64,000 nucleotides of DNA from Candidatus Acidiferrales bacterium (lineage in GTDB: Bacteria > Bacteroidota > Ignavibacteria > Kryptoniales > JAKASW01): the NCBI GenBank assembly GCA_035515795.1, contig DATJAY010000005.1:62001-126000 (forward strand), given 5' to 3'. Numbering within the stretch: position 1 is the stretch's first letter; each line of letters starts with the position of its first letter. Shown here piece by piece: positions 19,546 to 45,522 of the stretch. The notes beneath the pieces are model-generated. The model did no database searches. It saw only the letters and a list, made by a program, of their open reading frames with translations, and had not been told where the DNA came from. Position numbers and translations under genes: made by a program.

Positions 19546-20787
19546 ATGTGCCATCACGTGTTGAGCATTAGATCGACAATCATTGCATTGATGATTGGGT
19601 TAATGGCCGCGGGTTGCTCAAAAAAAAATTCGGTCACCGGCCCTGGTGTAATACCAAATTCTGCAAATATCGATCTAAACAATACCCAGCAGATCATCAG
19701 GGGATTTGGTGCCGCCAACATTGTCGGCTGGCGGCCTGATATGACTCCTGCGCAAATCCAGACCGCTTTCGGCGACGGCGATGGACAGGTTGGTTTGACA
19801 ATAATGCGGCTGCGAATCCCTCCCGACTCGACGGAGTTCGGCATCGATGTTCCTTCGGCACTGTCGGCGGAAGCGCTCGGTGTGACTGTCATTGCAACGC
19901 CGTGGACGCCTCCGGCGTGGATGAAGATAAATGATAACTTAGTCGGAGGCTACCTCGATCCTAACGAGTACGCGGCCTACGCCGCCCATCTTAAGGCATT
20001 TGCCGATACGATGAAAAACAACGGTGTCTCAATCTACGCCATCTCGGTTCAGAATGAACCCGATGCCCAAGTGGTGTACGAATCATGTTTTTGGAATGCA
20101 ACACAGTTTCTCAGCTTCATGAAACATTATGCGCCGTCCGTTGGTGTTCCGGTTTTCATGCCTGAGTCGGAGAGTTTCGATCACCAGTTCTCAGACTCCA
20201 CGCTGAACGATCCTGTCGCCTGCGCCAATGTCGCATTGATTGGAGGACACCTGTACGGGAACACGAATTTGGGTTACCCTTTAGCTATTGCCAAAGGGAA
20301 GGAATTGTGGATGACCGAATACCTCCTCACCGATACATCGTGGGCGGCAGTGCTCGGAACTGCGAAGCAGATCAATGATTGCATGAACGCTCAAATGAGC
20401 GCATATATATGGTGGTACATAGTAAGATATTACGGTCCGATCGCCGAAACGGGTAATGCGCCGACGAAGCGCGGTTACGTCATGTCCCAGTATGCGAGAT
20501 TTGTAAGACCGGGCTTTTACAGAGTTTCTGCCACAGCTAACCCGCAATCAAATGTTTACGTGACGGCATACAAGAATAGCTCCAAAGTGGTCATCGTGGC
20601 ACTGAACATGGACACGTCTGCAGTCAGTCAGACATTTACGATGCAGAACGGAAGCGCTGCTACCTTTACGCCTTACGTCACATCGGTCAATGTGAATTGT
20701 GTCCAGGGAAGGGTCGATACCGTATCGAGCGGATACTTCACGACCACTCTTGAGCCGTCGAGCGTAACGACTTTTGTGTCGAACTGA
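19546..20787 (+). CDS. GH30 glucuronoxylan-type endo-xylanase, lipoprotein
   Basis: 413 residues. A lipobox-like 'GLMAAGC' places the lipidated Cys at 24. GH30 catalytic residues are acid/base Glu171 (SVQNEP) and nucleophile Glu258 (WMTEYL). The segment 'AYIWWYIVRYYGP' resembles subfamily 8 glucuronoxylanases, where an Arg in this loop binds the glucuronate side chain; Arg294 is retained here. Subfamily 8 enzymes cut xylan next to a (methyl)glucuronate branch. Because it is lipid-anchored and lacks a T9SS tail, it may sit on the outer membrane, acting on chains made by GH10. Subfamily assignment is by eye. Confidence 0.88.
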   Translation: MCHHVLSIRSTIIALMIGLMAAGCSKKNSVTGPGVIPNSANIDLNNTQQIIRGFGAANIVGWRPDMTPAQIQTAFGDGDGQVGLTIMRLRIPPDSTEFGIDVPSALSAEALGVTVIATPWTPPAWMKINDNLVGGYLDPNEYAAYAAHLKAFADTMKNNGVSIYAISVQNEPDAQVVYESCFWNATQFLSFMKHYAPSVGVPVFMPESESFDHQFSDSTLNDPVACANVALIGGHLYGNTNLGYPLAIAKGKELWMTEYLLTDTSWAAVLGTAKQINDCMNAQMSAYIWWYIVRYYGPIAETGNAPTKRGYVMSQYARFVRPGFYRVSATANPQSNVYVTAYKNSSKVVIVALNMDTSAVSQTFTMQNGSAATFTPYVTSVNVNCVQGRVDTVSSGYFTTTLEPSSVTTFVSN

Positions 20788-22975
20788 GAGGGCTCTGACA
20801 GAGTATATCTTTGTTAGATCAATAACTAGGTTGCATCACGACGTGAAAAACATAATCTTGAAGATTGTTTCGACCATGCTTCTTGTCGCAGCTTGCATTA
20901 CCGTCCGTGCCGAAAACGGACACGGTCTCTGGCTGAGATATAAGCTTGTCTCAGATAAGCATCTGCGGGAAGAGTACACAAAGTTAGTCGATGGAATGAT
21001 CGTAGAAGGAGAATCGCCGACAATCCAGGCTGCTAAGAATGAACTTCAGAAAGGATTAAGCGGATTGTTGGGAAGGATGGTTCCTGAAATCAAAAGTGTA
21101 AATCATAACGGAGAAATATTAGTAGGGAGCTATAAAAGTTCGCCATTGATCGAACATGCCGGTGTGAAAAGTGATCTGTCGAAAACCGGACCGGAAGGTT
21201 TTGTCATCAAAAGTTTAGAGGTCGGCGGACGAAGAGTAACTGTCATCACCGCTAACGAAGATGTAGGCGTGCTTTACGGCGCTTTCCATTTCTTAAATTT
21301 ACTGCAGACGAACCAGGATATTTCCCACATCAACATTGTCTCCTTTCCGAGAATTAAACTGAGAATGTTAAATCACTGGGACAATCTTGATGGTACAAGA
21401 GTCTATCCTGGTTTTTCAATCTGGGATTGGCACACGCTTCCAACTTACATAAAGCAGATATATGTCGATTACGCCCGCGCCGACGCATCGATCGGCATCA
21501 ATGGTACCGTGTTGAACAACGTCAACGCTGATCCGCGAATTATTACTCATGATTATCTTGTTAAGATTGCCGCGCTCGCAGATGTGTTCCGTCCTTATGG
21601 AATAAAAGTTTTTCTCAGTGCCAATTTCGACTCGCCCGTGAAATTGGGAGAATTGAAATCTGCAGATCCATTCGATCCACAAGTAAGAGAATGGTGGAAA
21701 AACAAAGTCAAGGAAATTTATTCCTTCATTCCGGATTTCGGAGGCTTTCTCGTGAAGGCCAATTCGGAAGGTGAACCCGGACCCGGAGACTACAATAGAA
21801 CTCAGGCCGATGGTGCAAACGTGCTCGCGGAAGCGGTGAAACCTTATGGCGGAATCGTGATCTGGAGAGCTTTCGTCTATGCTTACAACCCCAAGGATCG
21901 TGCGCGCGAAGCCTACGATATATTCAAGCCGCTGGACGGAAAGTTCGACAGCAACGTCCTGCTACAGGTGAAGAACGGTCCGCTTGATTTTCAGCCGCGC
22001 GAACCGTTCAGCCCCTTGTTCGGCGCCATGCCAAAGACACCTCTGATGATGGAATTGGACATAGGTCAAGGTGCTTTGGGCGAAGATGTGGGTTTAGTTT
22101 ATCTTGCTCCGATGTGGAGAGAGTGTCTTATGTCGGATACTTACTGCAGAGGAAAAGGATCCACGGTCGCGAAAGTCGTCGACGGCTCAATCGATGGTTA
22201 CGAAACAACTGGCATTGCGGGAGTTTCAAATGTCAGCAACGAATGCAGCTGGACGGGGAACATTTTCGGACAGGCGAACTGGTACGCGTTCGGCCGCCTT
22301 GCCTGGGACTATGATCTTACTTCGAGTCAGATAGCCGACGAATGGATCAGGATGACCTTTTCGAACGACACGTCCGTAATAAATCCCGTTGAAGAAATAA
22401 TGATGACTTCGCGAGAGAATGTAGTGAACTATAGAGATCCGATCGGTCTCAACATGTTAGGCGGGTGGAGTGTTTATCATGGACCATGGGTTAACAATTC
22501 GGTACATGCCGATTGGAATTCTCCATATTACCACAGAGCCGACAGCATCGGCATCGGCTTCGATCGTACGAGAACCGGCAGCGATGCCGTGGACCAGTAT
22601 TATCCGCCGGTCGCCGACCAATTAAATTCCCTCGACACTTGCCCGGAAGAATATCTCCTCTGGTTTCATCATGTACCATGGAACTACAAGATGAGATCGG
22701 GTAATACCCTCTGGGATGAGCTTTCCTATCATTATTATAGAGGCGTCGAAGGCGTACAGGAAATTCAGAGCATATGGAATTCTTTAAAAGGGAAAGTAGA
22801 CAGCGAGGAGTTCAATTCGGTACGAATGCTGCTAAAGATACAGCATGACGATGCTGTCAGCTGGAGAGACGGTTGCGTTCTATATTTCCAGACTTTTTCT
22901 CATTTGCCCATTCCTGCCGGATTACCTGCACCTGAACACGATCTTGAATATTACGAGGAGCATAATCCGAGGTGA
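20774..22975 (+). CDS. GH67 alpha-glucuronidase
   Basis: Up to 733 residues. The ATG at 20774 overlaps the GH30 gene by 14 bases. The GTG at 20843 is an attractive alternative because it starts directly at the signal peptide ('VKNIILKIVSTMLLVAACITVRA'). GH67 hallmarks are 'NHWDNLDGT', 'KANSEGEPGPGDYNRTQADG' (likely acid Glu) and 'QVKNGPLDFQPREPF' with 'MMELDIGQ' (likely Asp/Glu base pair). GH67 enzymes remove 4-O-methylglucuronate only from the non-reducing end of xylo-oligosaccharides, complementing GH115, which also attacks internal branches. Probably periplasmic. Confidence 0.94.
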   Translation: MCRTERALTEYIFVRSITRLHHDVKNIILKIVSTMLLVAACITVRAENGHGLWLRYKLVSDKHLREEYTKLVDGMIVEGESPTIQAAKNELQKGLSGLLGRMVPEIKSVNHNGEILVGSYKSSPLIEHAGVKSDLSKTGPEGFVIKSLEVGGRRVTVITANEDVGVLYGAFHFLNLLQTNQDISHINIVSFPRIKLRMLNHWDNLDGTRVYPGFSIWDWHTLPTYIKQIYVDYARADASIGINGTVLNNVNADPRIITHDYLVKIAALADVFRPYGIKVFLSANFDSPVKLGELKSADPFDPQVREWWKNKVKEIYSFIPDFGGFLVKANSEGEPGPGDYNRTQADGANVLAEAVKPYGGIVIWRAFVYAYNPKDRAREAYDIFKPLDGKFDSNVLLQVKNGPLDFQPREPFSPLFGAMPKTPLMMELDIGQGALGEDVGLVYLAPMWRECLMSDTYCRGKGSTVAKVVDGSIDGYETTGIAGVSNVSNECSWTGNIFGQANWYAFGRLAWDYDLTSSQIADEWIRMTFSNDTSVINPVEEIMMTSRENVVNYRDPIGLNMLGGWSVYHGPWVNNSVHADWNSPYYHRADSIGIGFDRTRTGSDAVDQYYPPVADQLNSLDTCPEEYLLWFHHVPWNYKMRSGNTLWDELSYHYYRGVEGVQEIQSIWNSLKGKVDSEEFNSVRMLLKIQHDDAVSWRDGCVLYFQTFSHLPIPAGLPAPEHDLEYYEEHNPR

Positions 22976-32959: not shown

Positions 32960-33823
32960 GTGGTTGAGAATAAATCGACGGCAATCTTATTACTCTCGTG
33001 CAAAGATCGGACGGGATTGATCTCCAGGATTTCTCACTTCGTGTTCGAACGCGGTGGAAATATTCTCGACCTGGATGAGCATGTAGACGTAGATGACAAA
33101 CAGTTCTTTATCAGGATAGCATGGGATATGAAAAATTTTACAGTCCCGGAGTCCGAAGTGGCGGATGCGTTTACGCCTCTGGCGAAAGAATTCGGCGCGA
33201 CATATAAGATCAATTTCACCGGCAAGAATCTGAGAGTAGCGGTCTTCGTATCGAAGCTTGAACATTGCCTTCAGGAGATTTTATGGCGCCAGAGGCTCGG
33301 TGAGTTTAATATTGAAATCCCGCTGATCGTATCGAATCATGAAGATCTTCGGCACCTCGCCGAGCAGTACAGCATCCCGTTTTTCGTTTTTCCCGTGACA
33401 AAAGAAAATAAACCTGAGCAGGAAAGGAAAGAATTGGCATTGCTGGAGGAACAGCGGATCAATACAATTGTGCTGGCGCGCTACATGCAGGTTTTGTCTC
33501 CGCAGATTGTCTGCAAATTTCAGAATGAGATCATCAACATTCATCATTCATTCCTTCCTGCGTTTGCAGGGAGCGATCCATACAGGCAGGCCTATGAGCG
33601 GGGCGTAAAAATAATCGGCGCGACGAGCCACTATGTTACTGAAGAACTCGACGAGGGCCCGATCATCGAGCAGGACATCATCCGGATATCTCATAAAGAC
33701 ACAGTGAGCGATCTCGTGCGCAAAGGAAGAGATCTCGAGCGCCTGATACTCGCTCGCGCTATGTATTTCCACGCCCAGCACCGCATACTGGTTCATGGCA
33801 AACGAACTATTGTCTTCGAATAA
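32960..33823 (+). CDS. purU: Formyltetrahydrofolate deformylase
   Basis: 287 residues from a GTG eight bases after AGGAGG. Residues ~1-85 are an ACT domain ('TAILLLSCKDRTGLISRIS'). Residues ~88-287 are the formyltransferase-fold hydrolase with 'LARYMQVLSPQIV', 'INIHHSFLPAF' (catalytic His region) and 'EELDEGPIIEQD' (catalytic Asp). PurU hydrolyses 10-formyl-THF to formate and THF. In several demethylating bacteria it serves as the exit for oxidised methyl groups, so its place directly before a methyltransferase gene (14 bases) is suggestive. A plain role in balancing formyl-THF remains possible. Confidence 0.95.
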   Translation: MVENKSTAILLLSCKDRTGLISRISHFVFERGGNILDLDEHVDVDDKQFFIRIAWDMKNFTVPESEVADAFTPLAKEFGATYKINFTGKNLRVAVFVSKLEHCLQEILWRQRLGEFNIEIPLIVSNHEDLRHLAEQYSIPFFVFPVTKENKPEQERKELALLEEQRINTIVLARYMQVLSPQIVCKFQNEIINIHHSFLPAFAGSDPYRQAYERGVKIIGATSHYVTEELDEGPIIEQDIIRISHKDTVSDLVRKGRDLERLILARAMYFHAQHRILVHGKRTIVFE

Positions 33824-33837
33824 GGAGAGAGCATAAA

Positions 33838-34875
33838 ATGACTGATCAGCAATGGGATACACTTCTTAGAATAGTCAAGGGGGAGAGAGTCAGGCCGCTT
33901 CCGGCCGGTTTCATCATTGACAGTCCGTGGCTTCCAAACTGGTACGGAGTGAAGATATTGGATTATTTTTCAAACGACGAGGTTTGGCTGAATGCGAACC
34001 TGAAAGCCATGAATGATTTTCCCGACGTTATGTTCCTGCCCGGATTTTGGTCGGAATTTGGAATGTGCACTGAGCCGTCTGCATTTGGCGTGCGTTGCAC
34101 CTTCCCGCCGAACGAATTCCCGTTTGCGCACAAGGTCATTCAGTCGTCGGATGATATCGATTCGCTGCCTCAGCCGAATCCGAAGACGGATGGGCTTTTG
34201 CCTTTTGTCTTGAATAGGTTGAAGCTTGCCCAGCCAAAAATCGAGGCGGCCGGTCATAAGATTCGGTTTGCCGTCGCTCGCGGTCCATTGAACATCGCCA
34301 GCTATTTGATGGGCTCGACGGAATTCTTGACGACCATGATGATGGAACCGGAGAAGGCAGAATTGCTTATGAAGAAGATCACTATCTATTTGAAAGATTG
34401 GCTTCATCTCCAAATGGAGACCTTCCCTTCAATCGATGGCATCCTCATGCTCGATGATATCATCGGATTCATGGGGGCAGATCAATTTGAAGCTTTCGGC
34501 ATGTCGTATTTCAAAGAGTTGTACAATCAAAATGTTTCCGTGAAGTTCCTTCACAACGACGCACCGAGCAGGGAATCGGCGAAATTCCTTCCGGAAATTG
34601 GAGTGAACTTATTCAACATGGGATTCGATGTCACTCTGAACGAGTTAAAGCAGTTAACCCAGAACAAGGTGGCGTTGCTTGGAAATATTCCTCCACGCGA
34701 TGTTCTTGCGAGCGGAACACCGGAACAGGTGACAGAGACGATCGTTGACTTGATGAATTCGCTCAAAGACAATTCAAGGGTGATATTATCTTGCGGAGGA
34801 GGAATGCCTCCAGCGGTCAGCACGGAAAATATAGAAGCGTTTGTCCGGGCAGTTAAAGACAATTCGCTCGTCTGA
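33838..34875 (+). CDS. UroD-fold corrinoid methyltransferase (MtaA/CmuA-like), H-N-D variant
   Basis: 345 residues, 14 bases after purU with an AAGGAGAG site, so almost certainly the same transcript. The UroD fold is recognised, but the N-terminal substrate motif of heme-pathway HemE (P-x-W-x-M-R-Q-A-G-R) is absent. Methyltransferases of this superfamily bind zinc through H-x-C...C. Here the first part reads His239-Asn-Asp241 and the distal Cys319 is kept (ILSCGGGMPP). The altered ligand suggests a substrate different from that of the paralogue at 41415. I propose it moves a methyl group from a methoxylated sugar or aromatic to the corrinoid protein at 40742. Substrate is unproven. Confidence 0.8.
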   Translation: MTDQQWDTLLRIVKGERVRPLPAGFIIDSPWLPNWYGVKILDYFSNDEVWLNANLKAMNDFPDVMFLPGFWSEFGMCTEPSAFGVRCTFPPNEFPFAHKVIQSSDDIDSLPQPNPKTDGLLPFVLNRLKLAQPKIEAAGHKIRFAVARGPLNIASYLMGSTEFLTTMMMEPEKAELLMKKITIYLKDWLHLQMETFPSIDGILMLDDIIGFMGADQFEAFGMSYFKELYNQNVSVKFLHNDAPSRESAKFLPEIGVNLFNMGFDVTLNELKQLTQNKVALLGNIPPRDVLASGTPEQVTETIVDLMNSLKDNSRVILSCGGGMPPAVSTENIEAFVRAVKDNSLV

Positions 34876-34892
34876 AGATTTGATGTGAACTA

Positions 34893-34922
34893 AATGTCTC
34901 AGGAGTCTGTTGTTGAGACATT
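34893..34922 (+). other. Inverted repeat in intergenic region
   Basis: AATGTCTCA (34893-34901) pairs perfectly with TGAGACATT (34914-34922) around a 12-base loop, 18 bases after the methyltransferase stop. No T-run follows, so it is at best a weak terminator or a processing/stability hairpin. Confidence 0.4.
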
Positions 34923-35038
34923 GAATGTGAGAAGAAAAGTTCATGCTGCTATTTCAATCTAAGGTCCTGTAAGTTCATGAATATTCGTTGTAATGAGGGG
35001 TTAGGAAATTGAGGGATGATGAGTAAGGAGAGATCACG

Positions 35039-35896
35039 ATGAAAAGAAGAGACTTTATCAGATACACTGCTCTTTCTGCAGGAGCGGTCACATTTTCGCC
35101 TTACACGAAGCTCTTCCCGCCTGATGATAAGAAGAAATATGCGAGCGATGTGGTGACGTTAGGCAAGACCGGGATCAAAGCGTCCCGGCTTGCGATGGGG
35201 ACAGGGACTCATGGCTATAATCATCAATCTGATCAATCGAGAAGTGACTTACCGGGTTTACTCCGCGCCGCCTTCGACCATGGTATCAACTTTTGGGATT
35301 CAGCGGATCAATACGGCACGCACCCCGATCTGAAAGAAGCTCTCAAAAGTGTGCCGCGCGAGAAAGTTGTTATCCTGACAAAGACGGAGGCGACGACAGC
35401 TGATGAGATGAAGTCCGATCTCGACCGTTTTCGCGAAGAGATCGGCACCGACTATATTGACGTCGTCCTCCTGCACATGATGACGAGCGCCGATTGGCCA
35501 ACCGAGAAACAAGGCACCATGGAAGTGCTGGAACGAGCGCGGCAGGAGGGAACGATTCGTGCCCACGGCGTCTCATGTCATACGTTTGAAGCGCTCGAGG
35601 CAGCATCGAACTCGGATTGGGTGCAGGTTGATTTCGCGAGGATCAATCCGGCAGGTATCATCATGGATGCGGAAGTGAATGCAGTTGTGAAGGTACTGAA
35701 AAAAATGCATGACGATGGCAAGGGTGTGGTGGGAATGAAAATCTTTGGGGCGGGACGGCTTGTCGATAGAAGAGACGAATGCCTGCGATATGTCTTGAGT
35801 CTCGATTTTGTCGATGCATTTACAATCGGCCAGCGCAGCCAGGATGAGATGCTCGATTTGGTGAAACGCATACCGGCGGTGAGCACTTCAGACTGA
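35039..35896 (+). CDS. Tat-exported aldo/keto reductase
   Basis: 285 residues with an AAGGAGAG ribosome site. The N-terminus 'MKRRDFIRYTALSAGAVTFS' is a twin-arginine signal. The AKR catalytic tetrad can be placed at Asp87, Tyr92 (DSADQYGTH), Lys115 (ILTKTEA) and His146 (VLLHMM). Export of a folded, cofactor-loaded AKR fits the Tat route, as in several Bacteroidota. It lies between the PurU-methyltransferase pair and the convergent uxuA region, so a sugar or uronate carbonyl could be its substrate, but nothing in the sequence fixes this. Confidence 0.87.
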   Translation: MKRRDFIRYTALSAGAVTFSPYTKLFPPDDKKKYASDVVTLGKTGIKASRLAMGTGTHGYNHQSDQSRSDLPGLLRAAFDHGINFWDSADQYGTHPDLKEALKSVPREKVVILTKTEATTADEMKSDLDRFREEIGTDYIDVVLLHMMTSADWPTEKQGTMEVLERARQEGTIRAHGVSCHTFEALEAASNSDWVQVDFARINPAGIIMDAEVNAVVKVLKKMHDDGKGVVGMKIFGAGRLVDRRDECLRYVLSLDFVDAFTIGQRSQDEMLDLVKRIPAVSTSD

Positions 35897-35912
35897 TCTG
35901 AAATTTCTTACC

Positions 35913-36503
35913 TCATTTTTTTCTGCACACGAATTCTCCTTTTCCTATGGGAACCAGTAAACAGTCGAGCCCCGGATCCTTTTCCGCCTTATCTATCATC
36001 GGTCTAATCATTTCATAATGACTGATCGCGTTGTCCGCCACTATAAAACCGTTCTTAATCAACTTCGGTAACACAAGATCAAAGCATCTTTCATAGATCT
36101 CTTTCTCCGCATCCAAAAAACAGAATGCGATGTCGTCAATTTTTTTCTCTTCGTTCAAAAAGTCCCCCTCGATTAATTCCACATAGTTTTCTATGCCTGC
36201 CGTTTTAATAGTTTCCCTTGCCAGTCTCGCCTTCTCAGGTAATATCTCGAAAGTTTTTATTTTCGTGTTTCTTTCTTTTGCAGCTAGCGACAGCCACATT
36301 GTCGAGTAACCGGCGCTCGTGCCTATCTCTATGAACTCGCCCGTCGGACAATTAGCCGCCATCAATGATATGAATCTGCCGGTTTCAGGAGGGATTTGAC
36401 GCAGCCTTTGATTTTTGGGCGTACCATCATGTCTGTCTTTCCTGTCAATCTCCTCCAAATAGTTCATCCGTTTTAACATCGCGTCGGAAATATCATGGAA
36501 CAT
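35913..36503 (-). CDS. Class I SAM-dependent O-methyltransferase (CCoAOMT/COMT-like)
   Basis: 196 residues. The SAM site is 'EFIEIGTSAGYST', followed by 'IKTFEILPEKARLA'. The metal-binding set of cation-dependent O-methyltransferases is visible as Asp in 'CFLDAEKE' and Asp-Asn in 'FIVADNAISH'. It is somewhat shorter than the usual ~220 residues, mainly at the N-terminus. It lies downstream of uxuA on the same strand and runs into the convergent AKR gene. Family members methylate catechol-like hydroxyls. Why one sits in a locus that otherwise looks demethylating is unclear. Confidence 0.85.
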   Translation of the reverse strand: MFHDISDAMLKRMNYLEEIDRKDRHDGTPKNQRLRQIPPETGRFISLMAANCPTGEFIEIGTSAGYSTMWLSLAAKERNTKIKTFEILPEKARLARETIKTAGIENYVELIEGDFLNEEKKIDDIAFCFLDAEKEIYERCFDLVLPKLIKNGFIVADNAISHYEMIRPMIDKAEKDPGLDCLLVPIGKGEFVCRKK

Positions 36504-36563
36504 TTTTTCTCCTTCAGCTAGGCATTCCTGGAATGTGAGATGAGACTCCGCAGATTAGGCCCG

Positions 36564-37751
36564 CTATTGTAACCCAAGCGAGCGTCTGATTCCAAGTTCC
36601 AGTCCGCGCAGTTCGGAAAGTCCCCGCATCCGGCCGAACAGTGAGTATCCTGGGTAGATCCCTTTCCTGTTCATGTCGGGAATCATGAGATGGCCGTGGT
36701 CGGGCCGCATCGGCAGACTCTTCAATCCTTTCTCCGCGCGCCGCTCCTGTTCGAGTACGAGCGGTTTCATCACGCGGTACATATCCACGTCGCCGTCGAG
36801 GTGATTGTCTTCGATAAAGCCTCCCGTCCCGTCCCGCTTCACATTCCGAAGGTGGATAAAATTTATACGAGATGCGAACGCTTCGGCCATTTCCACGATG
36901 TTGTTTCCCGTAGAAGCCGCTAGCGAACCCGGGCAATAAGTAATTCCGTTCGACTGCGAATCCGAGACGCTTAGTATCTGCTCGAAATCTTGCTTGCTGC
37001 TGACTACTCTCGGCAGGCCGAAGAACTGAAATGGCGGATCATCGGGGTGAATGCCCAAGAGCACATCCGATTCTTCGGCGGAGGCGATTATTTCCTTGAT
37101 GAAAAAATACAAATTTTCCCGGAGTTCGCCCGCGTCGATCTTTTCATATTTTGCCAACTCCGACCTGAATCCATCCAGCGTGTAAGCATCAAGGGAACCC
37201 GGAAAGCCGAGAAGAATTGTCCGGTGCAGAGTATCCCGTTGCTCGCTTGTCATGGCGCGAAAATATTTTTCGGCTTCTTTTATTTCCTGGTTGCGATAAT
37301 CTTTTTCGGAATCTTTTCTTTTCAACATGAAGATATCGAACGCGGCAAGAACCCGTCTCTCAAATTTCGTGGTTATCGATCCGTCTTTGAAAACGACCCG
37401 CAGATCTGTGCGCAGCCAATCGAGCACCGGCATGAAATTGTAGCACACGACGCCGATTCCGCATTGACCGAGATTTCTTATCGTCTCTTTGTAATTGTCG
37501 ATATACTTGCGATAATTACCTATTCGTTTCTTGATATCCTCATGTACCGGGATACTTTCGGTGACGGACCACCTTAGTCCCGCCTTCTCGATCAGATTTT
37601 TTCGCTCGAGGATTTTTTCGATACTCCATGTTTCTCCAGTCGGGATTTGATGGAGCGAAGTAACGATGCCGGTCGCGCCGGTTTGCCTTACTTCCTCAAG
37701 CGAGATCGGATCGTTCGGACCGAACCATCTCCACGTTTGTTCGAATGGCAT
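36564..37751 (-). CDS. uxuA: D-mannonate dehydratase
   Basis: 395 residues, matching the usual ~394. Family landmarks are 'EQTWRWFGPNDP', 'ATGIVTSLHQIPTGE', 'GIGVVCYNFMPVLDW', 'GIHPDDPP', 'GITYCPGSLAA' and 'LPMRPDHGHLM'; several of these His, Asp and Cys positions bind the divalent metal. It converts D-mannonate to 2-keto-3-deoxy-gluconate in glucuronate catabolism (EC 4.2.1.8). Together with the GH67/GH115 enzymes this marks glucuronate as a real carbon source. It sits 47 bases after the LacI regulator gene on the same strand. Glucuronate isomerase, KDG kinase and KDPG aldolase are not in the window. Confidence 0.97.
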   Translation of the reverse strand: MPFEQTWRWFGPNDPISLEEVRQTGATGIVTSLHQIPTGETWSIEKILERKNLIEKAGLRWSVTESIPVHEDIKKRIGNYRKYIDNYKETIRNLGQCGIGVVCYNFMPVLDWLRTDLRVVFKDGSITTKFERRVLAAFDIFMLKRKDSEKDYRNQEIKEAEKYFRAMTSEQRDTLHRTILLGFPGSLDAYTLDGFRSELAKYEKIDAGELRENLYFFIKEIIASAEESDVLLGIHPDDPPFQFFGLPRVVSSKQDFEQILSVSDSQSNGITYCPGSLAASTGNNIVEMAEAFASRINFIHLRNVKRDGTGGFIEDNHLDGDVDMYRVMKPLVLEQERRAEKGLKSLPMRPDHGHLMIPDMNRKGIYPGYSLFGRMRGLSELRGLELGIRRSLGLQ

Positions 37752-37798
37752 TTATTTATTTTCCCCAACAGGCCTAGCGCAATCCCGGCCTGCTTCAT

Positions 37799-38833
37799 TC
37801 AGTCGTTCAATACCCTCGTTGATTCTCTGATGACAAATTCCGTCTCGAAGACAACTTTTTCGACAGGGAGCAATTTCGGAGATTCGATATTTCGAATAAG
37901 TATTTCGGCTGCCCTTCGTCCTATCTCATGTTGAGGCGCCCTTATCGTCGTCAATGGTACCGGATAGATTTTCGCATAGTAGATATCGTCGTTACCGACG
38001 ATCGATATATCGCCCGGCACCGAGATATTCAACTGTTTCAGCGCCATCATGACGGCGAGCGCCTGATGGTCGTTAAAGCAGACAATCGCCGTAGGATATT
38101 GGTCTTTCGTTTTCTTCTTAAAATATTCTACCGTCTTCGGGAACACTTCATCGTAATGAGAACCGATGGGTACGATCATATCCCTGTTGAACACCGAGGT
38201 ACTCTCGCTGAAAGCGTCGCGGAATCCTTCAATGCGCTCCTGTGTGTGAGACGACTGATGGGGGCCGGCAAAGTGCACGATTTTTTTATGGCCGCTTTCT
38301 ATCAGATACTTCACAGCTTTCTTGATGGCCCTCAAGTTGTCAATCGCCACGACATTTGCCTGAATCCCTTTGACTTCTTCCAGCAGAACGAACGGATAAT
38401 TTATCATTTTCAATTTGAAGAGATGTTCAATCTCCGCCGTCCCCTCGACAACCGGAGCTATTATAGTCCCTTTGATGTCCTTCGTCGAGAAAAGATGGGA
38501 CAGCTTCTTCTCGTTCTCATGATTATCATCCGAGCTTGTCACGATCACGGAGTATCCCTTGGTACTTGCGTAGTCCTTCACGCCGGTTGCTATGGAAGTA
38601 TAAAAAGGATAGTTTAAGTCTTTTATGATTATCGCGATGGATTTGTCCTGAGTTCCGTTCTTCAGATTTCTTGCGACTCCCCTTGGCCGGAAGTTCAGTT
38701 CTTTCATTACTTCGAGTATGTGGTCCCTCGTTCCGGGTCTCACAGAGTTTTTCGCATTGATGACGGCGGAGACTGTTCCTTTCGAGACCCCTGCTCTCTT
38801 CGCAACATCGTCTATCGTTATTCTTTTCAGCAA
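37799..38833 (-). CDS. LacI-family transcriptional regulator of the uronate/methyltransferase region
   Basis: 344 residues with an N-terminal LacI helix-turn-helix ('ITIDDVAKRAGVSKGTVSAVIN', residues ~4-25), hinge region, and a periplasmic-binding-protein-like effector domain ('SIVGNDDIYYAKIYPVPLTTI'). It precedes uxuA on the minus strand and faces the T9SS gene at 39075 across a 240-base promoter region. It is therefore likely to respond to a uronate-derived sugar and control both directions. The effector is not deducible from sequence. Confidence 0.94.
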   Translation of the reverse strand: MLKRITIDDVAKRAGVSKGTVSAVINAKNSVRPGTRDHILEVMKELNFRPRGVARNLKNGTQDKSIAIIIKDLNYPFYTSIATGVKDYASTKGYSVIVTSSDDNHENEKKLSHLFSTKDIKGTIIAPVVEGTAEIEHLFKLKMINYPFVLLEEVKGIQANVVAIDNLRAIKKAVKYLIESGHKKIVHFAGPHQSSHTQERIEGFRDAFSESTSVFNRDMIVPIGSHYDEVFPKTVEYFKKKTKDQYPTAIVCFNDHQALAVMMALKQLNISVPGDISIVGNDDIYYAKIYPVPLTTIRAPQHEIGRRAAEILIRNIESPKLLPVEKVVFETEFVIRESTRVLND

Positions 38834-38861
38834 AATTCCTGCCCTTTTGGATTTATTAAAT

Positions 38862-38874
38862 TGAAACGGTTTTG
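38862..38874. promoter_or_regulatory. Candidate LacI-type operator
   Basis: TGAAACGGTTTTG contains an odd-length palindrome, AAAC-G-GTTT, centred on 38868, about 30 bases upstream of the LacI gene's start. LacI-family sites often have this AAAC/GTTT form. The outer bases do not match, so this is only a candidate autoregulatory site. Confidence 0.3.
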
Positions 38875-38942
38875 TGAATTCCTACACAGTTCAAATTACC
38901 TCACAATTGTTTGAAAATCAACTAACTACGTGACTGTGTCAA

Positions 38943-38971
38943 TTGAAAGTATTATCAAGAGGTAGTATAAT
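38943..38971 (+). promoter_or_regulatory. Sigma-70-like promoter for the gene at 39075
   Basis: TTGAAA (38943-38948), a 17-base spacer and a perfect TATAAT (38966-38971) lie about 100 bases before the start codon of the DUF4380-like gene. The long leader leaves room for regulation. Some Bacteroidota use a different -33/-7 promoter, so functional use of this one is an inference. Confidence 0.6.
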
Positions 38972-39074
38972 TCACACGAAATGAATGGCTTGCGCGTCGG
39001 TTAATGTGCAATGATTGTGACACCGAAAAAAACAATTCGCCGAATTTTCTGATTAAGTGAAAAGGGAGACTGTA

Positions 39075-40673
39075 ATGTCCAAGATATTTTTTCTTTTATT
39101 TTATTTCCTTTCGTCAGCTTTGTCCGCTCAAACATCGAACGTTTCTCTTCAGACAATTTCAAATTATGACAAATGGGGATGGGGTGCGATCGTTATTCAA
39201 AACGGTGTCATAACTCTTGCTACAGTGCCTGCCATTGGAGCCCGCGTCATGCAGTACGACTTGGACACTCTGCAGTCAATAATGGTAAATCCAAGTTTGT
39301 TGGGAAAAACTTACACACCTTCGACCAGTATTCCGTGGCCGAATTTCGGCGGATACAAAACATGGCCGTCACCTCAGAGTAACTGGAACTCTGGACAGTG
39401 GCCTCCACCGCCGACGCTGGACTACGGTGCATATACTGTCACCGACACCATTCGGGCAAGCGACTCCGTAACAGTGGGAGTAGCCAGCCAAACTGAACAG
39501 TGGTACGCACCGGGGATCCAGTTCACGCGTAAGGCGACGATCTATAACGGAACCAGTCGCGTAAAGATGGAACAAACAATAATCAACCAGGGAACAACAG
39601 ACGTGACCTGGGGCGTCTGGAGTATCATTCAATCGGTCGTGAATCATACAGGGAAAAGTGATAACCAGAACTTCTGGGCATATTTTCCTATCAATCCCAC
39701 CAGCATTTTTGGGAGTGGCGGCGTCGGAATGCCTCAAGGTCAAAGCAGAGCATGGAAAGGTGAAGTAGCACCCGGCATCTACGGCGTTCAGTTCTATCCG
39801 GACAACAACAAGATCTTTGCTGATCCTGACAAAGGTTGGATTGCGTACACAAGTCTTTCTGACACTGTCGTGTTTGCAAGGACATTCCCAATTTATGATT
39901 CGCTTCAATACCCTGATGGTGGTGCGAGAGTTTCGGTGTATGTAAGTTCTCCAAGCTCAAGCAGCGCGCCTGCATATATGGAAGTGGAAGTGAAAGGTCC
40001 GCTGGTGAGCCTCGCTGCCGGCGGTGGAGAATACACCTTCACGGAAAATTGGTGGGCTGCTAAGGTTCGCGCGCCTGTTCTCGATGTGGATTCCGCGGGC
40101 GCTGTCGGTGAACGTATGTCATACGGCGCAACGACTCATGTGATATCCGCCGCCTACGGCGTATTTTATAATGGTACAGCCAAATTGTCATTTGTCGACA
40201 GGCAGGGAAATATTATAGCCGAAGGACAGGAACATCCGGTCTCTCCGCTTAATGAATTTCGACTCGGGGAAACAGTCGCTATACCCGATAGCGCAAGTGC
40301 GGTGGAAGTCTTGATTCGCGACGGCAGCGGAACATTGATGGGCATATTGGAGAAGGAGGATATTTCTCAACTTCTATCAGTAGTGAATCCAAAGACGCAG
40401 GCCGGCGCTTCGAATTATCGTCTCGCTCGAAATTATCCCAACCCGTTCAATGGAGGCACGGTGGTTACATTCTTCTGCCCGGTGGTCACGCGTGGCTCGC
40501 TCAAGATTTACGATATACTGGGAAGAGAAGTGGCGCAGCTCGCATCAGGAAGATTTGAAGCGGGTGAGCATCGTTACAACTGGAATCCTGAGAATCTTGC
40601 CAGCGGTGTTTACATAGCAACCTTTGAAGCTAACGGCCTTCGGCTGACTCAAAAAATGTTATACCTCCGGTGA
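39075..40673 (+). CDS. T9SS-exported DUF4380-like (aldose-epimerase-fold) protein
   Basis: About 532 residues from the ATG at 39075, which follows GGGAG and begins a good signal peptide ('MSKIFFLLFYFLSSALSAQ'). The body ('GVITLATVPAIGARVMQYDLD', 'PNFGGYKTWPSPQSNW', 'KMEQTIINQGTTDVTWGVW') matches the beta-rich DUF4380 family, related to galactose-mutarotase folds. The T9SS tail has a slightly divergent motif (NYPNPFNGGT). Placed directly after the promoter shared with the LacI regulator and just before the corrinoid operon, it may bind or process a sugar outside the cell. No catalytic role can be claimed. Confidence 0.78.
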   Translation: MSKIFFLLFYFLSSALSAQTSNVSLQTISNYDKWGWGAIVIQNGVITLATVPAIGARVMQYDLDTLQSIMVNPSLLGKTYTPSTSIPWPNFGGYKTWPSPQSNWNSGQWPPPPTLDYGAYTVTDTIRASDSVTVGVASQTEQWYAPGIQFTRKATIYNGTSRVKMEQTIINQGTTDVTWGVWSIIQSVVNHTGKSDNQNFWAYFPINPTSIFGSGGVGMPQGQSRAWKGEVAPGIYGVQFYPDNNKIFADPDKGWIAYTSLSDTVVFARTFPIYDSLQYPDGGARVSVYVSSPSSSSAPAYMEVEVKGPLVSLAAGGGEYTFTENWWAAKVRAPVLDVDSAGAVGERMSYGATTHVISAAYGVFYNGTAKLSFVDRQGNIIAEGQEHPVSPLNEFRLGETVAIPDSASAVEVLIRDGSGTLMGILEKEDISQLLSVVNPKTQAGASNYRLARNYPNPFNGGTVVTFFCPVVTRGSLKIYDILGREVAQLASGRFEAGEHRYNWNPENLASGVYIATFEANGLRLTQKMLYLR

Positions 40674-40741
40674 GGGTATTGGTATTAGTGACCGCGGGAA
40701 AACTATATTAAGCAAGCGGATCGATTCTTGAAGATGATGAT

Positions 40742-41410
40742 ATGCACGAAATACTGGAACAATTGACAACCTGCATCGAGCTTGGAAAAATCAATAAGGC
40801 TTCACCATACCCGCCTGCTTTGAAAGGACAAGATGGAGCCGATGAGCTTTGCAAGATGGCACTGGATCAGGGGATAGCCCCGGACGATGTTTTGAACAAG
40901 GCGTTGATACCGGGAATGTCGAGAATCGGTCAAAAATTTTCACAAGGTAAGGCGTTCGTTCCGGAGATGTTGATCGCCGCGAAGGCGATGACGGCGGCAA
41001 TGAAACACCTGAAGCCATTTTTTACGTCGGGCGAAATAAAGAGGAAAGGCACATTCGTTGTCGGAACCGTCATGGGTGACCTCCACGATATAGGTAAAAA
41101 TATTTTGTCGATGACTATTGAAGGCGCAGGATGGGAAGTGGTAGATTTGGGCGTCGATGTGAAGGCAGAGAAATTCTTAGAGGCAATTGACAAACACCCG
41201 GATTGCGTTGTCGGTTTGTCTGCACTGCTTACAACTACGATGGCAAATATGGAGTCGATCGTGAAGACAATCAGAGACAAATACCCCAACAAGGTAATCC
41301 TCGTAGGCGGGGCGCCGTTATCGATGGACTTCTGCAAAAAGATCGGAGCGAATTTTTATTCTCCTGACCCTCATGGAGCTGTCGAGTTTCTGAACAAACT
41401 TGCAGCATGA
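40742..41410 (+). CDS. Corrinoid (B12-binding) methyltransferase protein, MtaC/MtbC-like
   Basis: 222 residues. An N-terminal helical cap (~1-98, 'ALIPGMSRIGQKFSQGKAFVPEMLIAAKAM') precedes a Rossmann-like B12 domain. The cobalt-ligating motif is G-D-L-H-D-I-G (His115), followed by 'VVGLSALLTTTM' and 'VILVGGAPLS'. Such proteins shuttle a methyl group on a bound corrinoid between a substrate methyltransferase and an acceptor methyltransferase. It starts a tight operon with a UroD-fold methyltransferase, a reactivation protein and a homocysteine methyltransferase. Confidence 0.95.
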   Translation: MHEILEQLTTCIELGKINKASPYPPALKGQDGADELCKMALDQGIAPDDVLNKALIPGMSRIGQKFSQGKAFVPEMLIAAKAMTAAMKHLKPFFTSGEIKRKGTFVVGTVMGDLHDIGKNILSMTIEGAGWEVVDLGVDVKAEKFLEAIDKHPDCVVGLSALLTTTMANMESIVKTIRDKYPNKVILVGGAPLSMDFCKKIGANFYSPDPHGAVEFLNKLAA

Positions 41411-41414
41411 GCAT

Positions 41415-42419
41415 ATGAACGTATCCGAGTGGATAGTCTCCTTAGGTAATTCTCCGAACAGACTTGCGGTCCCGATCATGACGCATCCGGGTATTGAATC
41501 TACAGGCAAGACCATTGTCGAAGCGGTCAGTGACGGCGAGACACAATTCCGGGCAATCAAAGCAGTTCAGGAAAAATATTCGCCTGATGCTGCAACGATG
41601 ATCATGGATCTGACGGTTGAAGCTGAGGCTTTTGGCAGCAGGATAAATTTGTCCGACAAAGAAATACCTTCACTCACCGACAGACTTGTGGGTGATCAGG
41701 AATCTGTGGAAAGGTTGAGGGTTCCTTCACTTGAATCCGCACGCGTTCCACAGTATCTCAGGGCTGCTCAGCTTGCGGTTAAGGAAATAAAAGATAAGCC
41801 GGTGTTTGCGGGATGCATCGGACCTTTCTCGCTTGCCGGAAGATTGTTCGGCATGTCCGAAATTATGACCTCGCTTTTCATCGAGCCTGATGTAATTAAA
41901 CTTCTCCTGGACAAGTGTTCTTCATTTTTGCGTTCGTACATCGGAGCGATGAAAAATCTCGGCACTGATGGAATTCTAATGGCTGAGCCGGCTGCAGGAC
42001 TTTTATCGGCGGAAATGTGCGATGAGTTTTCCTCGGATTACATAAAAGGAATCGTAGATGATGTTCAGGACGGGGATTTTCTTTTTATACTCCACAACTG
42101 CGGGAACACGGGTCACGTAACGCAATCCATGATATACACGGGCTCCGGCGGGCTGCATTTTGGAAACAGGGTCAGTATGGTCGAGGTACTGAATGAAGTA
42201 CCCAAAAACAGACTTGTGTTCGGCAATCTCGATCCTGTTAGCGTTTTCAAGTCAGGCTCGCCAAAACATGTTTTCGATGAGACGACTAAACTCTTGCGCC
42301 AGACTACCGATCATAGAAATTTCATAATATCTTCCGGCTGTGATACCCCGCCCGGCTCTCCTCCGGAAAATGTGGAAGCTTTCTTTCACGCCGTCAGAAT
42401 ATTCAATGCTGGAGACTGA
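41415..42419 (+). CDS. UroD-fold corrinoid methyltransferase (MtaA/MtbA-like), H-x-C...C zinc type
   Basis: 334 residues from the ATG at 41415, four bases after the corrinoid gene; an upstream in-frame TTG at 41400 is inside that gene and less likely. The zinc-site pattern of methylcobamide methyltransferases is intact: His227-Asn-Cys229 (ILHNCGNTGH) and Cys309 (ISSGCDTPPGS). HemE's N-terminal arginine motif is absent, so it is not uroporphyrinogen decarboxylase. It probably exchanges methyl groups between the corrinoid protein and a thiol or another partner. Which direction it works in cannot be decided here. Confidence 0.88.
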   Translation: MNVSEWIVSLGNSPNRLAVPIMTHPGIESTGKTIVEAVSDGETQFRAIKAVQEKYSPDAATMIMDLTVEAEAFGSRINLSDKEIPSLTDRLVGDQESVERLRVPSLESARVPQYLRAAQLAVKEIKDKPVFAGCIGPFSLAGRLFGMSEIMTSLFIEPDVIKLLLDKCSSFLRSYIGAMKNLGTDGILMAEPAAGLLSAEMCDEFSSDYIKGIVDDVQDGDFLFILHNCGNTGHVTQSMIYTGSGGLHFGNRVSMVEVLNEVPKNRLVFGNLDPVSVFKSGSPKHVFDETTKLLRQTTDHRNFIISSGCDTPPGSPPENVEAFFHAVRIFNAGD

Positions 42420-43150
42420 TGCTGTTGGCAAAGACTTTTGCGAGTGCCGAGACTTTTTCTTTTGATCATGACGAGATAAGGATTTCGCGAAATGCCTTTG
42501 CATGTGCATTGGGCTACGATCCGGATTCAATGCCCGCTCCGCTAATCGAATCGATCGATGATATTCTCGAAAATGGTAACACATTATGTAACATTGAAGG
42601 TGGATACAAAATAATCGGCCCGGTTCAGTTTGATCGTGTTAGCCATTCCCTTATGCTAAGTTCTTATAGCTTCAATGTAAAGAAAGTGGTTTTCCAGCAG
42701 TTGAAGAAAGCCGAGAACATCGCCCTTTTTGCATGCACTGCGGGAAACGAAATAATCGAAAAGTCGAGAGATTTGATGAAGGGGGGAGAGCTCCTGAAAG
42801 GTTATGTCTACGACGTGTTCGGGTCCTTGGTAGTTGAAGAGGCGATGGATCACATACAGAACGCGCTTAGAAACAAAATGCTGGAAGAAAAGCTGAAGAT
42901 TACAAATCGCTACAGCCCGGGATATTGCGGATGGGATGTGTCGGAGCAGAAAAAGCTGTTCAGTATGCTGCCTAAAAAATTCTGCGGTATTGAGCTAACC
43001 GATTCATGTCTCATGCGGCCGATCAAGTCGGTCAGCGGAATCATCGGCATCGGGAAATCCGTCAAGTTCAATGAGTACACGTGCAATTTGTGCGATGAAG
43101 CAGACTGTCTTTATAGAAATCTGAGACACAAGACAGCGTTATCAAGTTAA
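42419..43150 (+). CDS. Stand-alone MetH-type reactivation (AdoMet-binding) domain protein
   Basis: 243 residues. Its ATG overlaps the previous stop in TGATG, indicating translational coupling. The C-terminal half carries the MetH activation-domain features 'RYSPGYCGWD' (164-173) and 'LTDSCLMRPIKSVSG' (193-207), which bind S-adenosylmethionine. A Cys cluster, C-x-x-C-x4-C (Cys222, Cys225, Cys230), follows. Such proteins reductively methylate corrinoid that has become inactive cob(II)alamin. Its place in the operon indicates it services the protein at 40742. Confidence 0.88.
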   Translation: MLLAKTFASAETFSFDHDEIRISRNAFACALGYDPDSMPAPLIESIDDILENGNTLCNIEGGYKIIGPVQFDRVSHSLMLSSYSFNVKKVVFQQLKKAENIALFACTAGNEIIEKSRDLMKGGELLKGYVYDVFGSLVVEEAMDHIQNALRNKMLEEKLKITNRYSPGYCGWDVSEQKKLFSMLPKKFCGIELTDSCLMRPIKSVSGIIGIGKSVKFNEYTCNLCDEADCLYRNLRHKTALSS

Positions 43151-43161
43151 AGGACTGAAAA

Positions 43162-44043
43162 ATGAAGAGAATCAAAGAGAGAGTTCTATTCGGCGAGATT
43201 CTACTGTCGGATGGTGCATGGGGTACCATGCTACACTCGAAAGGTTTAAAAATAGGAGATTGTCCTGAAAGATGGAATCTCGAAAGACGCGCCGACGTGC
43301 TGGACGTGGCAAAAAGTTACGTCGATGCGGGTTCAGACATGATTGAGACGAATAGCTTCGGCGGAAGCAAATTCAAGTTGGACTATTACGGATTGGGAGA
43401 TAGAGTCGTTGATGTAAACAGAATTGCCGCCGAGATATCCAGGGAAGCCGCCGGAGACATAGTTTATGTCCTCGGATCCGTCGGGCCGACGGGAAAGATG
43501 CTGCTGACAGGCGATGTGACCAAGGAAGAGTTATATGAATGCTTTGGGGAGCAGGCAAAGGCACTCGAGGCTGGCGGGGCGGATGCTATTGTTGTAGAAA
43601 CGATGTTCGATTTAGATGAAGCGAAGTGTGCGATAAAGGCGGCGAAGGAAAACACAAAGTGCGAAGTCATTTGTACCATGACGTTCGATTCCAGCGGAAC
43701 GGGATTCCACACCATGATGGGGACAACTCCCGAAGTCGCTGCACGATCATTGATGGAAGCCGGCGCAGACATCATCGGATCAAACTGCGGCAACGGTGTT
43801 GAGAATATGGTTAGCATTGTGAGACAAATGCGCTCCGTCGATGGGAAGATCCCAATCTTAGTCCAGGCAAACGCCGGCCTGCCGATGGTAGTTGAAGGTA
43901 AAACAATATTTCCCGAAACGCCTGAAGCGATGGCAAGGTGGATCAATCCATTGATAGACGGAGGCGCCAACATAATCGGTGGATGCTGTGGAACTACCCC
44001 GGAGCACATCAGGAAAATTGCCGAAGTCGTCAGAGCAAGTTGA
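43162..44043 (+). CDS. Homocysteine S-methyltransferase (MetH N-terminal-domain type)
   Basis: 293 residues, 11 bases after the reactivation gene. The zinc ligands of the family are present: Cys209 in 'IIGSNCGNG' and the Cys275-Cys276 pair in 'GGCCGTTPEH'. The opening 'LSDGAWGTML' and 'MIETNSFGGSKFKL' also match. It transfers a methyl group from methylcobamide or another donor to homocysteine, yielding methionine. With the free corrinoid protein and reactivase it forms a split methionine-synthase-like set that lacks a pterin (methyl-THF) binding domain. Confidence 0.93.
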   Translation: MKRIKERVLFGEILLSDGAWGTMLHSKGLKIGDCPERWNLERRADVLDVAKSYVDAGSDMIETNSFGGSKFKLDYYGLGDRVVDVNRIAAEISREAAGDIVYVLGSVGPTGKMLLTGDVTKEELYECFGEQAKALEAGGADAIVVETMFDLDEAKCAIKAAKENTKCEVICTMTFDSSGTGFHTMMGTTPEVAARSLMEAGADIIGSNCGNGVENMVSIVRQMRSVDGKIPILVQANAGLPMVVEGKTIFPETPEAMARWINPLIDGGANIIGGCCGTTPEHIRKIAEVVRAS

Positions 44044-44076
44044 AAATAATATCAATATTATGAAAGGGTATGCTTG

Positions 44077-45486
44077 ATGAGCTCGACTCAATTCTTTCCT
44101 TCTGAAGAAATGATCTTGAAAGAACGGCTGAAGAACTGCAGAGAGTTATGCGATGACCCGCAGCTGATCGGAGATCCGGGTTTCAAAAATCCAATAGCCG
44201 AATCGCGTATCGGTCGATATGTAACAGGTAAAAGAATTTGTGCGACCGGAGATATCGATATCATTAAGGCTTATTTAGATGTGAATCGGAACCTGCCGAG
44301 TTTTCCTGCAGCGGGCCCGCGGGAGCACCTGTTCTTTGACCCCGCCGAAGTGAGAGTTGGAATCGTGACTGCCGGCGGAATCGCACCGGGACTTAACACC
44401 GTGATTCATTCGATTGTGAATATGCACTCGACCGTTTACGGAACGCGGGAGAAGGCGGTCGGTTTCCTCGGCGGATTCCGCGGTATTGAACAGCAGCATA
44501 CCGTTGAGTTGGAGCCGATGAAGACAATCGAATGGCTTCAAAAAGGGGGAACGGGGATCTACACGGGCCGCGACAAAGCAGATGTGAAAGCAATCGTGAC
44601 GAGTATCGTGCAATTGGATATCAATATCCTTTATGTAATCGGCGGAGATGGATCGTTGAGCATGGCCCATGCAATCGCGAAAGAAATCGAGGCGAGGAGG
44701 CTTAAGATTGTGGTGGCAGGGATCCCTAAGACGATGGACAATGACGTGATGTGGATTTCCCACTCATTCGGATTCGATACGGCGGTCGAAGAGGCGGCTC
44801 GCATCGTAAACGCGATCCATGATGAGGCAAAGTCTACGAGAAGAATTTGTCTCCTGCCGCTTTTCGGAAGGGAAGCAGGCTTCGTCGCAGCCCATGCAGC
44901 GCTCGCATGCGGGCATGTCGACGCAATCCTTGTTCCCGAAGTGGAATTCAAACTCGAGCCGCTTCTCGAATATGTGGATAAACTTGTCAAGCGGAAGGGG
45001 CACGCGCTTATTGTTTTGGCAGAGGGTGCGTGCCCGTGGGGTTATGCCGAGAAGGACATTGAGAGAGAACTAAGAGGACGTGGACTCGATCCGGCGGATA
45101 GAACTAACCCGCATGTCAGCGATGCGCTGCGTTCGTGGCGCCTGAACGTGATCCTCGACAGATTCAGGGAATACTTCGGAAAGTTGTGGGGAGATGAACA
45201 TCAGGTTTTTGTAGAAGAACCGCGATACCTTATCCGCGCGATTCCTGCGAACTCGGTCGACCAGATTTACTGCCAGCGGCTTGCTGACCTTGCCGTCCAC
45301 AATGCGCTTGCCGGTTATACCGATTTCATGATAAGCCAGTGGCTCGATGAGTATGTGTTGGTTCCGTTGAAGCTGGTCGCAGAAGAGAAGGGTCCGGACG
45401 GGAGGCGGCTCACAAAAAAAATTCATCCGGGGAGTGTCTTCTGGGCAACAGTCATAAACAGCACAGACCAGCCGTCGTTCGCGTGA
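44077..45486 (+). CDS. 6-phosphofructokinase family protein
   Basis: About 469 residues from the ATG at 44077 (a TTG directly before it is in frame). The PFK fold is clear from 'VGIVTAGGIAPGLNTVI', 'GGTGIYTGRDK', 'VIGGDGSLSMA', 'GIPKTMDNDV' and 'LFGREAGFVA'. Gly in GGDGS is the residue usual in ATP-dependent enzymes, while Lys in PKTMDND is usual in pyrophosphate enzymes. The combination occurs in long ATP-dependent members. The phosphoryl donor is therefore unsettled. It follows the methyl-transfer operon by 33 bases and could process sugars from the degradation locus. Confidence 0.9.
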   Translation: MSSTQFFPSEEMILKERLKNCRELCDDPQLIGDPGFKNPIAESRIGRYVTGKRICATGDIDIIKAYLDVNRNLPSFPAAGPREHLFFDPAEVRVGIVTAGGIAPGLNTVIHSIVNMHSTVYGTREKAVGFLGGFRGIEQQHTVELEPMKTIEWLQKGGTGIYTGRDKADVKAIVTSIVQLDINILYVIGGDGSLSMAHAIAKEIEARRLKIVVAGIPKTMDNDVMWISHSFGFDTAVEEAARIVNAIHDEAKSTRRICLLPLFGREAGFVAAHAALACGHVDAILVPEVEFKLEPLLEYVDKLVKRKGHALIVLAEGACPWGYAEKDIERELRGRGLDPADRTNPHVSDALRSWRLNVILDRFREYFGKLWGDEHQVFVEEPRYLIRAIPANSVDQIYCQRLADLAVHNALAGYTDFMISQWLDEYVLVPLKLVAEEKGPDGRRLTKKIHPGSVFWATVINSTDQPSFA

Positions 45487-45522
45487 CAGCACTCTTCACG
45501 TTTGAAGATAAGAGAGCCCTGC

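Follow-up and report, generated by a model that had tools for sequence, protein, structure and literature searches.

The stretch of DNA analysed here (64,000 nucleotides, G000:C5:62001-126000; hereafter the window) belongs to a bacterium whose closest named relatives are metagenome-assembled genomes of the Ignavibacteria type, and it brings together a long series of glucuronoxylan genes and a candidate corrinoid-dependent O-demethylation system. The original prediction had proposed that the protein encoded at 33838, a UroD-fold methyltransferase that we call UroD1, demethylates 4-O-methylglucuronate by way of a corrinoid protein; the open reading frame positions and family calls behind it were all confirmed by profile scores and motifs. 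The five genes most directly concerned are the following.

33838..34875, plus strand: UroD1, proposed 4-O-methylglucuronate:corrinoid protein methyltransferase (PF01208, 122 bits; His239/Asp241/Gly321 site)
40742..41410, plus strand: CorrP, corrinoid protein (PF02310 and PF02607, two B12-binding domains, DLHDIG motif; closest solved structure 1y80)
41400..42419, plus strand: UroD2, second UroD-fold methyltransferase, MtaA/CmuA-like, with a His-Cys-Cys site (PF01208, 194 bits)
42419..43150, plus strand: Act, putative small corrinoid reactivase of the MetH activation-domain type (PF02965; 1j6r; C-terminal CxxCxxxxC)
43162..44043, plus strand: HcyMT, homocysteine methyltransferase, proposed methyl-acceptor side (PF02574; GGCC zinc motif)

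From CorrP to HcyMT the genes form the tight operon that had been described, with an overlap of 11 bases between CorrP and UroD2, an overlap of 1 between UroD2 and Act, and a gap of 11 between Act and HcyMT. The DLHDIG sequence gives CorrP the DxHxxG motif of a cognate corrinoid protein, and in relatives CorrP is contiguous with UroD1. Act is short and of the MetH-activation type; it may be a small reactivase for corrinoid with a single cluster, and its C-terminal cysteines may hold an iron-sulfur cluster.

UroD1 has the character of a UroD-fold substrate methyltransferase by its PF01208 match, by its predicted model (pLDDT 94) and by a fold search, in which the top TM-score was that of MtaA (4ay7, 0.82/0.84). 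Both UroD1 (62 bits) and UroD2 (78 bits) miss the HemE equivalog cut-off (TIGR01464, 303 bits), and the genome's top PF01208 match, probably HemE, lies on another contig (C12). In all UroD1 proteins inspected, the alignment places His239, Asp241 and Gly321 at the metal positions, a site assigned from the alignment and not from model geometry, and Asp206, Asp207 and Arg148 are invariant as well; UroD2 and nearly all members of UroD3, a third UroD-fold protein found in relatives, have His-Cys-Cys instead and no Arg at the Arg148 position. According to Kountz and Balskus (PMC10418091), UroD-superfamily S-methyltransferases carry His-Cys-Cys zinc sites, and in O-methyltransferases carboxylates or non-ligands stand for one or both Cys. 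The UroD1 site, with no Cys-Cys pair, is of the O-type pattern, and because His-Asp-Gly agrees with this rule the protein fits an O-demethylase by sequence. It is tempting to speculate that Arg148 clamps the sugar carboxylate. The identity of the metal is not certain, since CdmB functions without zinc (PMC13222342).

In relatives, gene order supports the proposal that the 33838 protein works with the corrinoid operon. Orthologues of UroD1 were found in seven congeners (71-79% identity), in G071 (72%) and in G031 (60%), and distant ones (32-33%) in G075, G087 and G092. The contiguous order CorrP-HcyMT-Act-UroD1 occurs in five congeners (G001, G005, G009, G010 and G012), in or beside xylan clusters, and partial strings are seen in G071 (CorrP-HcyMT-UroD1) and, at a contig start, in G008 (HcyMT-Act-UroD1). 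Several of these strings come right after the xylan cluster's beta-helix, GH30 and GH10 genes, often with UxuA and UroD3 next, and the predicted linkage with glucuronoxylan genes thus holds in relatives, where CorrP-HcyMT-Act-UroD1 lies inside glucuronoxylan clusters. A scan of public genomes yielded 80 UroD1 loci, 72 of them non-redundant and some with flanks cut by short contigs; CorrP, HcyMT or Act lies no more than 400 bp from UroD1 in 27 of the 72, and GH115 or GH67 no more than 10 kb away in 24. At one locus, L106, from a MAG labelled Melioribacter roseus, GH115 is followed by the complete CorrP-HcyMT-Act-UroD1 string. The loci come from Ignavibacteriota, Calditrichota, KSB1, Fibrobacterota, Spirochaetota, Fidelibacterota, WOR-3, Verrucomicrobiota and Bacteroidota, among others. 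In the tree, the UroD1 sequences fall into a single supported clade (99/96); we read the tree only for the unity and spread of UroD1, since its deep branches are long and its rows for MtaA and HemE are unreliable.

Glucuronoxylan is a major hemicellulose, and its side sugar is largely 4-O-methylated. The predicted set of genes for its use was recovered in full upstream of UroD1 (GH8, GH115, CE15, a SASA esterase, two GH10, a polysaccharide deacetylase, GH30, GH67 and GH43); the long string lies on the plus strand, starts upstream of the window and ends with PurU and then UroD1. Its members that matter most here are these.

8828..11884, plus strand: GH115 alpha-glucuronidase (PF15979)
11894..13441, plus strand: CE15-type glucuronoyl esterase (PF22244)
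15558..16358, plus strand: SDR oxidoreductase, possible uronate-route reductase (PF13561), near UroD1 in several relatives
20774..22975, plus strand: GH67 alpha-glucuronidase (PF07488)

Counting UroD1 as present above 220 bits, and GH115 or GH67 as an alpha-glucuronidase, we found UroD1 in 13 and an alpha-glucuronidase in 12 of 119 related genomes: both in 12, UroD1 only in one (G001), an alpha-glucuronidase only in none and neither in 106. The Fisher p is 1.4e-15, and by genus the two sets are identical (6/60 genera, 2e-8), although these values overstate independence, the genomes being of one class and common ancestry. In three of the six shared genera the two kinds of gene lie on separate contigs, and the co-occurrence is therefore more than neighbourhood. 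Across a phylum-wide sample (n=396), 10 of the 11 UroD1 genomes have an alpha-glucuronidase.

A further connection is regulatory. The predicted genes were all present, but UxuA and a LacI-type regulator lie on the minus strand and separate the UroD1 part from the CorrP operon, with a predicted operator in the stretch from which LacI-UxuA and DUF4380-CorrP diverge.

36564..37751, minus strand: UxuA mannonate dehydratase (TIGR00695, 496 bits)
37799..38833, minus strand: LacI-type regulator (PF00356)
38860..38875, plus strand: predicted operator ATTGAAACGGTTTTGT, with 1 mismatch to ATTGAAACGGTTNNAT (0.04 expected), the sole such site in the window
39057..40673, plus strand: DUF4380 T9SS-exported protein (PF14315, PF18962), first gene past the operator and 68 bases 5' of CorrP

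In other genomes, relatives of the regulator (71-83% identity) sit beside GH115, GH8, CorrP or other glucuronoxylan or UroD1 genes. The 16-bp motif ATTGAAACGGTTCAAT gave 32 sites of at least 18 bits, where 200 column-permuted motifs gave 0.8 on average and 15 at most; the excess is partly built in because about 10 of the 32 went into making the motif. Its sites precede LacI, GH115, GH8, SDR-UxuA, CorrP (L042), UroD1 (L049) and the distant UroD1' (L052); at L077 one lies between SDR-UxuA and UroD1, and before the window start a perfect operator precedes a GH3 gene at C5:56394 (L155:1394). Within the window, sites of the first symmetric operator pattern were not above chance, and those of the rebuilt motif with 3 mismatches allowed were at chance level. 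The common LacI-type operator ties the corrinoid genes to glucuronate catabolism, presumably through co-regulation.

Taking these lines together, we consider it probable that the genes encode a sugar O-demethylase that depends on a corrinoid, works anaerobically and is linked to the use of glucuronoxylan. Linkage, co-occurrence with GH115/GH67, LacI operators and the metal-site pattern all bear out the core of the original prediction; we infer the donor, the metal, the acceptor and whether demethylation comes before isomerisation. Xylanases and the alpha-glucuronidases (GH67, GH115) would free 4-O-methylglucuronate, which, as such or as an early derivative of the Uxu route, UroD1 would bind; the His/Asp metal site would activate the ether oxygen, and UroD1 would methylate the cob(I)alamin carried by CorrP. 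The demethylated sugar acid would continue through UxaC, which was found in the genome, mannonate oxidoreductase and UxuA. HcyMT would carry the methyl group from CorrP to homocysteine, yielding methionine, and Act would restore oxidised corrinoid. The set may be pictured as a split methionine synthase: the homocysteine, corrinoid and activation domains of MetH have their counterparts in HcyMT, CorrP and Act, and MetH differs in having a pterin module for methyl-tetrahydrofolate (methyl-THF), in whose place UroD1 would stand as the sugar-ether module. The genome's own MetH lies elsewhere (L154:4138-7878, G000 C4) as a pair of adjacent genes, the break falling between its pterin and corrinoid parts.

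The known corrinoid O-demethylases MtvB, OdmB, VdmB and MtoB, which we compared by description and not by sequence, and the chloromethane system CdmBCA (PMC13222342) likewise have a UroD-fold methyltransferase, a corrinoid protein and a reactivase in one cluster. They differ in that the window system has a sugar/UxuA context and HcyMT instead of a H4folate methyltransferase; their reactivase is ATP-dependent, whereas the putative one of the window is of the short MetH type. A profile search with UroD1 finds CdmB (9rui, E 2.9e-9), in a match that spans only part of the protein. With MtaA/MtbA, UroD1 has the UroD fold in common; it misses all curated cut-offs for them by far, and the gene content and sugar context of the window are unlike theirs. 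The His-Cys-Cys motif is common to this group, UroD2 and UroD3, where UroD1 has His-Asp-Gly.

As to the methyl acceptor, homocysteine or THF had been suggested, and homocysteine is the likelier here. A stand-alone methyl-corrinoid:H4folate methyltransferase (MTII) was not found in the genome, whose Pterin_bind proteins number two, one in MetH and the other, by size and score, probably FolP; nor was a pterin-binding methyl-THF domain found in the CorrP operon. Transfer to homocysteine through HcyMT is accordingly the likely route in this organism. The distant form looks different. In G075 (L052:347-13028), UroD1', CorrP and an HcyMT-like protein are accompanied by MTHFR, a Pterin_bind methyltransferase, a RACo-type reactivase, mannonate oxidoreductase and UxuA, apparently a demethylase set with THF as the methyl exit; the loci L053 and L054 have UroD1', the HcyMT-like protein, MTHFR, the Pterin_bind methyltransferase, the RACo-type reactivase and UxuA. 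The pterin-binding methyltransferase, MTHFR and RACo imply transfer to THF there, and a RACo-type protein is seen only in this distant form.

The formate step that had been assigned to PurU fares less well.

32960..33823, plus strand: PurU (TIGR00655, 389 bits, cut-off 286), directly 5' of UroD1

Relatives do not keep PurU together with the system: we found it within 10 kb of UroD1 at only one other locus, on the opposite strand, and rejected it as a conserved core partner. In E. coli, PurU is regulated by methionine; by analogy, PurU beside UroD1 may relieve a surplus of one-carbon THF units when sugar methyls supply methionine.

Several observations, together with the common ancestry behind the co-occurrence figures, weigh against a sugar demethylase of this kind. 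Of the 74 alpha-glucuronidase genomes in the phylum-wide sample, 64 have no UroD1, and nearly all of these belong to other classes. UroD1 therefore implies an alpha-glucuronidase and not the reverse, and is not obligatory for glucuronoxylan use. In the window itself UroD1 lies about 6 kb from the CorrP operon, inside which UroD2 is found; this separation is unusual, as the two adjoin in most relatives, and G007 likewise has a CorrP-UroD2 operon distant from UroD1. Many Bacteroidota and Spirochaetota UroD1 loci have no glucuronoxylan genes nearby. Homocysteine as the only sink may be too small, and the supply of methyl groups from xylan may exceed the need for methionine, which is a real weakness.

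It is unlikely, on balance, that UroD1 acts on other O-methylated sugars or on a range of them, with 4-O-methylglucuronate as just one substrate. Such a broader role would suit Bacteroidota and Spirochaetota, in which UroD1 is mostly outside glucuronoxylan loci, with DUF6807, GFO/IDH/MocA oxidoreductases and one sulfatase, for example, in its company; it sits poorly with the near-perfect alpha-glucuronidase co-occurrence in the window's class, and the putative active-site residues Arg148, Asp206, Asp207, His239 and Asp241, invariant family-wide, suggest one substrate type. At five loci of Bacteroidales and other Bacteroidota (L117, L120, L123, L126, L138), a DUF6807 protein and GFO/IDH/MocA oxidoreductases come after UroD1, and there are no glucuronoxylan genes within reach.

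Alternatively, the system could be a corrinoid O-demethylase not for the sugar but for methoxylated aromatics (ferulate, vanillate, syringate) freed along with xylan, and all well-known UroD-superfamily O-demethylases do use methoxyaromatics (PMC13222342). Xylan clusters also meet lignin-bound phenolics, and in several loci a PF00756 esterase comes after UroD1. Nevertheless, UroD1 follows alpha-glucuronidases genome by genome, even across contigs, and its operator is common with UxuA and GH115; an aromatic substrate would explain neither this tracking nor the operator sharing nor the presence of UxuA/SDR genes in G075, which counts against it, and we regard it as distinctly improbable. Very improbable is a reading after the type 1 mlp clusters (PMC10418091), in which S-methyltransferase-type His-Cys-Cys sites (Mlp1-3) work with a Ram/RACE activase instead of demethylating an oxygen ether: UroD2 and UroD3 have that motif, HcyMT is within the operon, and a group made up of multiple UroD proteins, a corrinoid protein and an activase does resemble mlp clusters, but UroD1, the most conserved linked component, is without both Cys ligands, UroD2 is alone in the window in having the motif, the activase, a short domain of the MetH type, is not of the Ram/RACE kind, the xylan-gene linkage recurs in several phyla, and gene content and sugar context are unlike.

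The sugar O-demethylase that we favour may have kin of wider use. UroD2 orthologues (L147, L148, L149, L150) lie with GH42 and further UroD proteins (G007), with L-fucose isomerase and an FGGY kinase (G058), with GH31/GH2/GH38 and three more UroD proteins (G112) and with GH3 (G067). Such contexts hint at a family of methyl-sugar enzymes, for which the His-Cys-Cys motif counsels caution. UroD2 as the sugar demethylase of the present locus is not favoured, in view of that motif, its absence from most congeners and its other contexts. In most congeners UroD3 comes after UroD1, and an MFS or TRAP transporter usually accompanies it (L035, L037, L041, L044, L046, L047). A general anaerobic methyl-sugar route, with UroD1 for 4-O-methylglucuronate, UroD2/UroD3-like proteins for other O-methyl sugars, and methyl groups of plant polysaccharides passed to methionine or folate in many phyla, is a tentative extension that we think possible but do not count on.

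Among the neighbouring genes, the last one included in the original prediction (44074-45486) is a phosphofructokinase, and no evidence ties it to the system. After it, a small protein (45502-46071) has a weak match, below cut-off, to PF04463 (2-thiouracil desulfurase). A catechol-type O-methyltransferase (PF01596) lies beside UxuA at 35913-36503 on the minus strand, in the gap that separates UroD1 from the CorrP operon.

In the open-access papers that we searched we found no enzyme described for the O2-independent removal of the 4-O-methyl group from the xylan side sugar, nor, in keeping with what had been stated, a sugar-specific corrinoid demethylase. The system is coherent and seems not to have been described in the open literature that we searched, and it would be a form of corrinoid O-demethylation rather than a separate category. 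If our interpretation is true, it would fill a gap in xylan catabolism and make the anaerobic use of a plant sugar dependent on vitamin B12; it would widen corrinoid O-demethylation from aryl to alkyl ethers, with a methionine-synthase-like assembly supplied by the methyl groups of a sugar.

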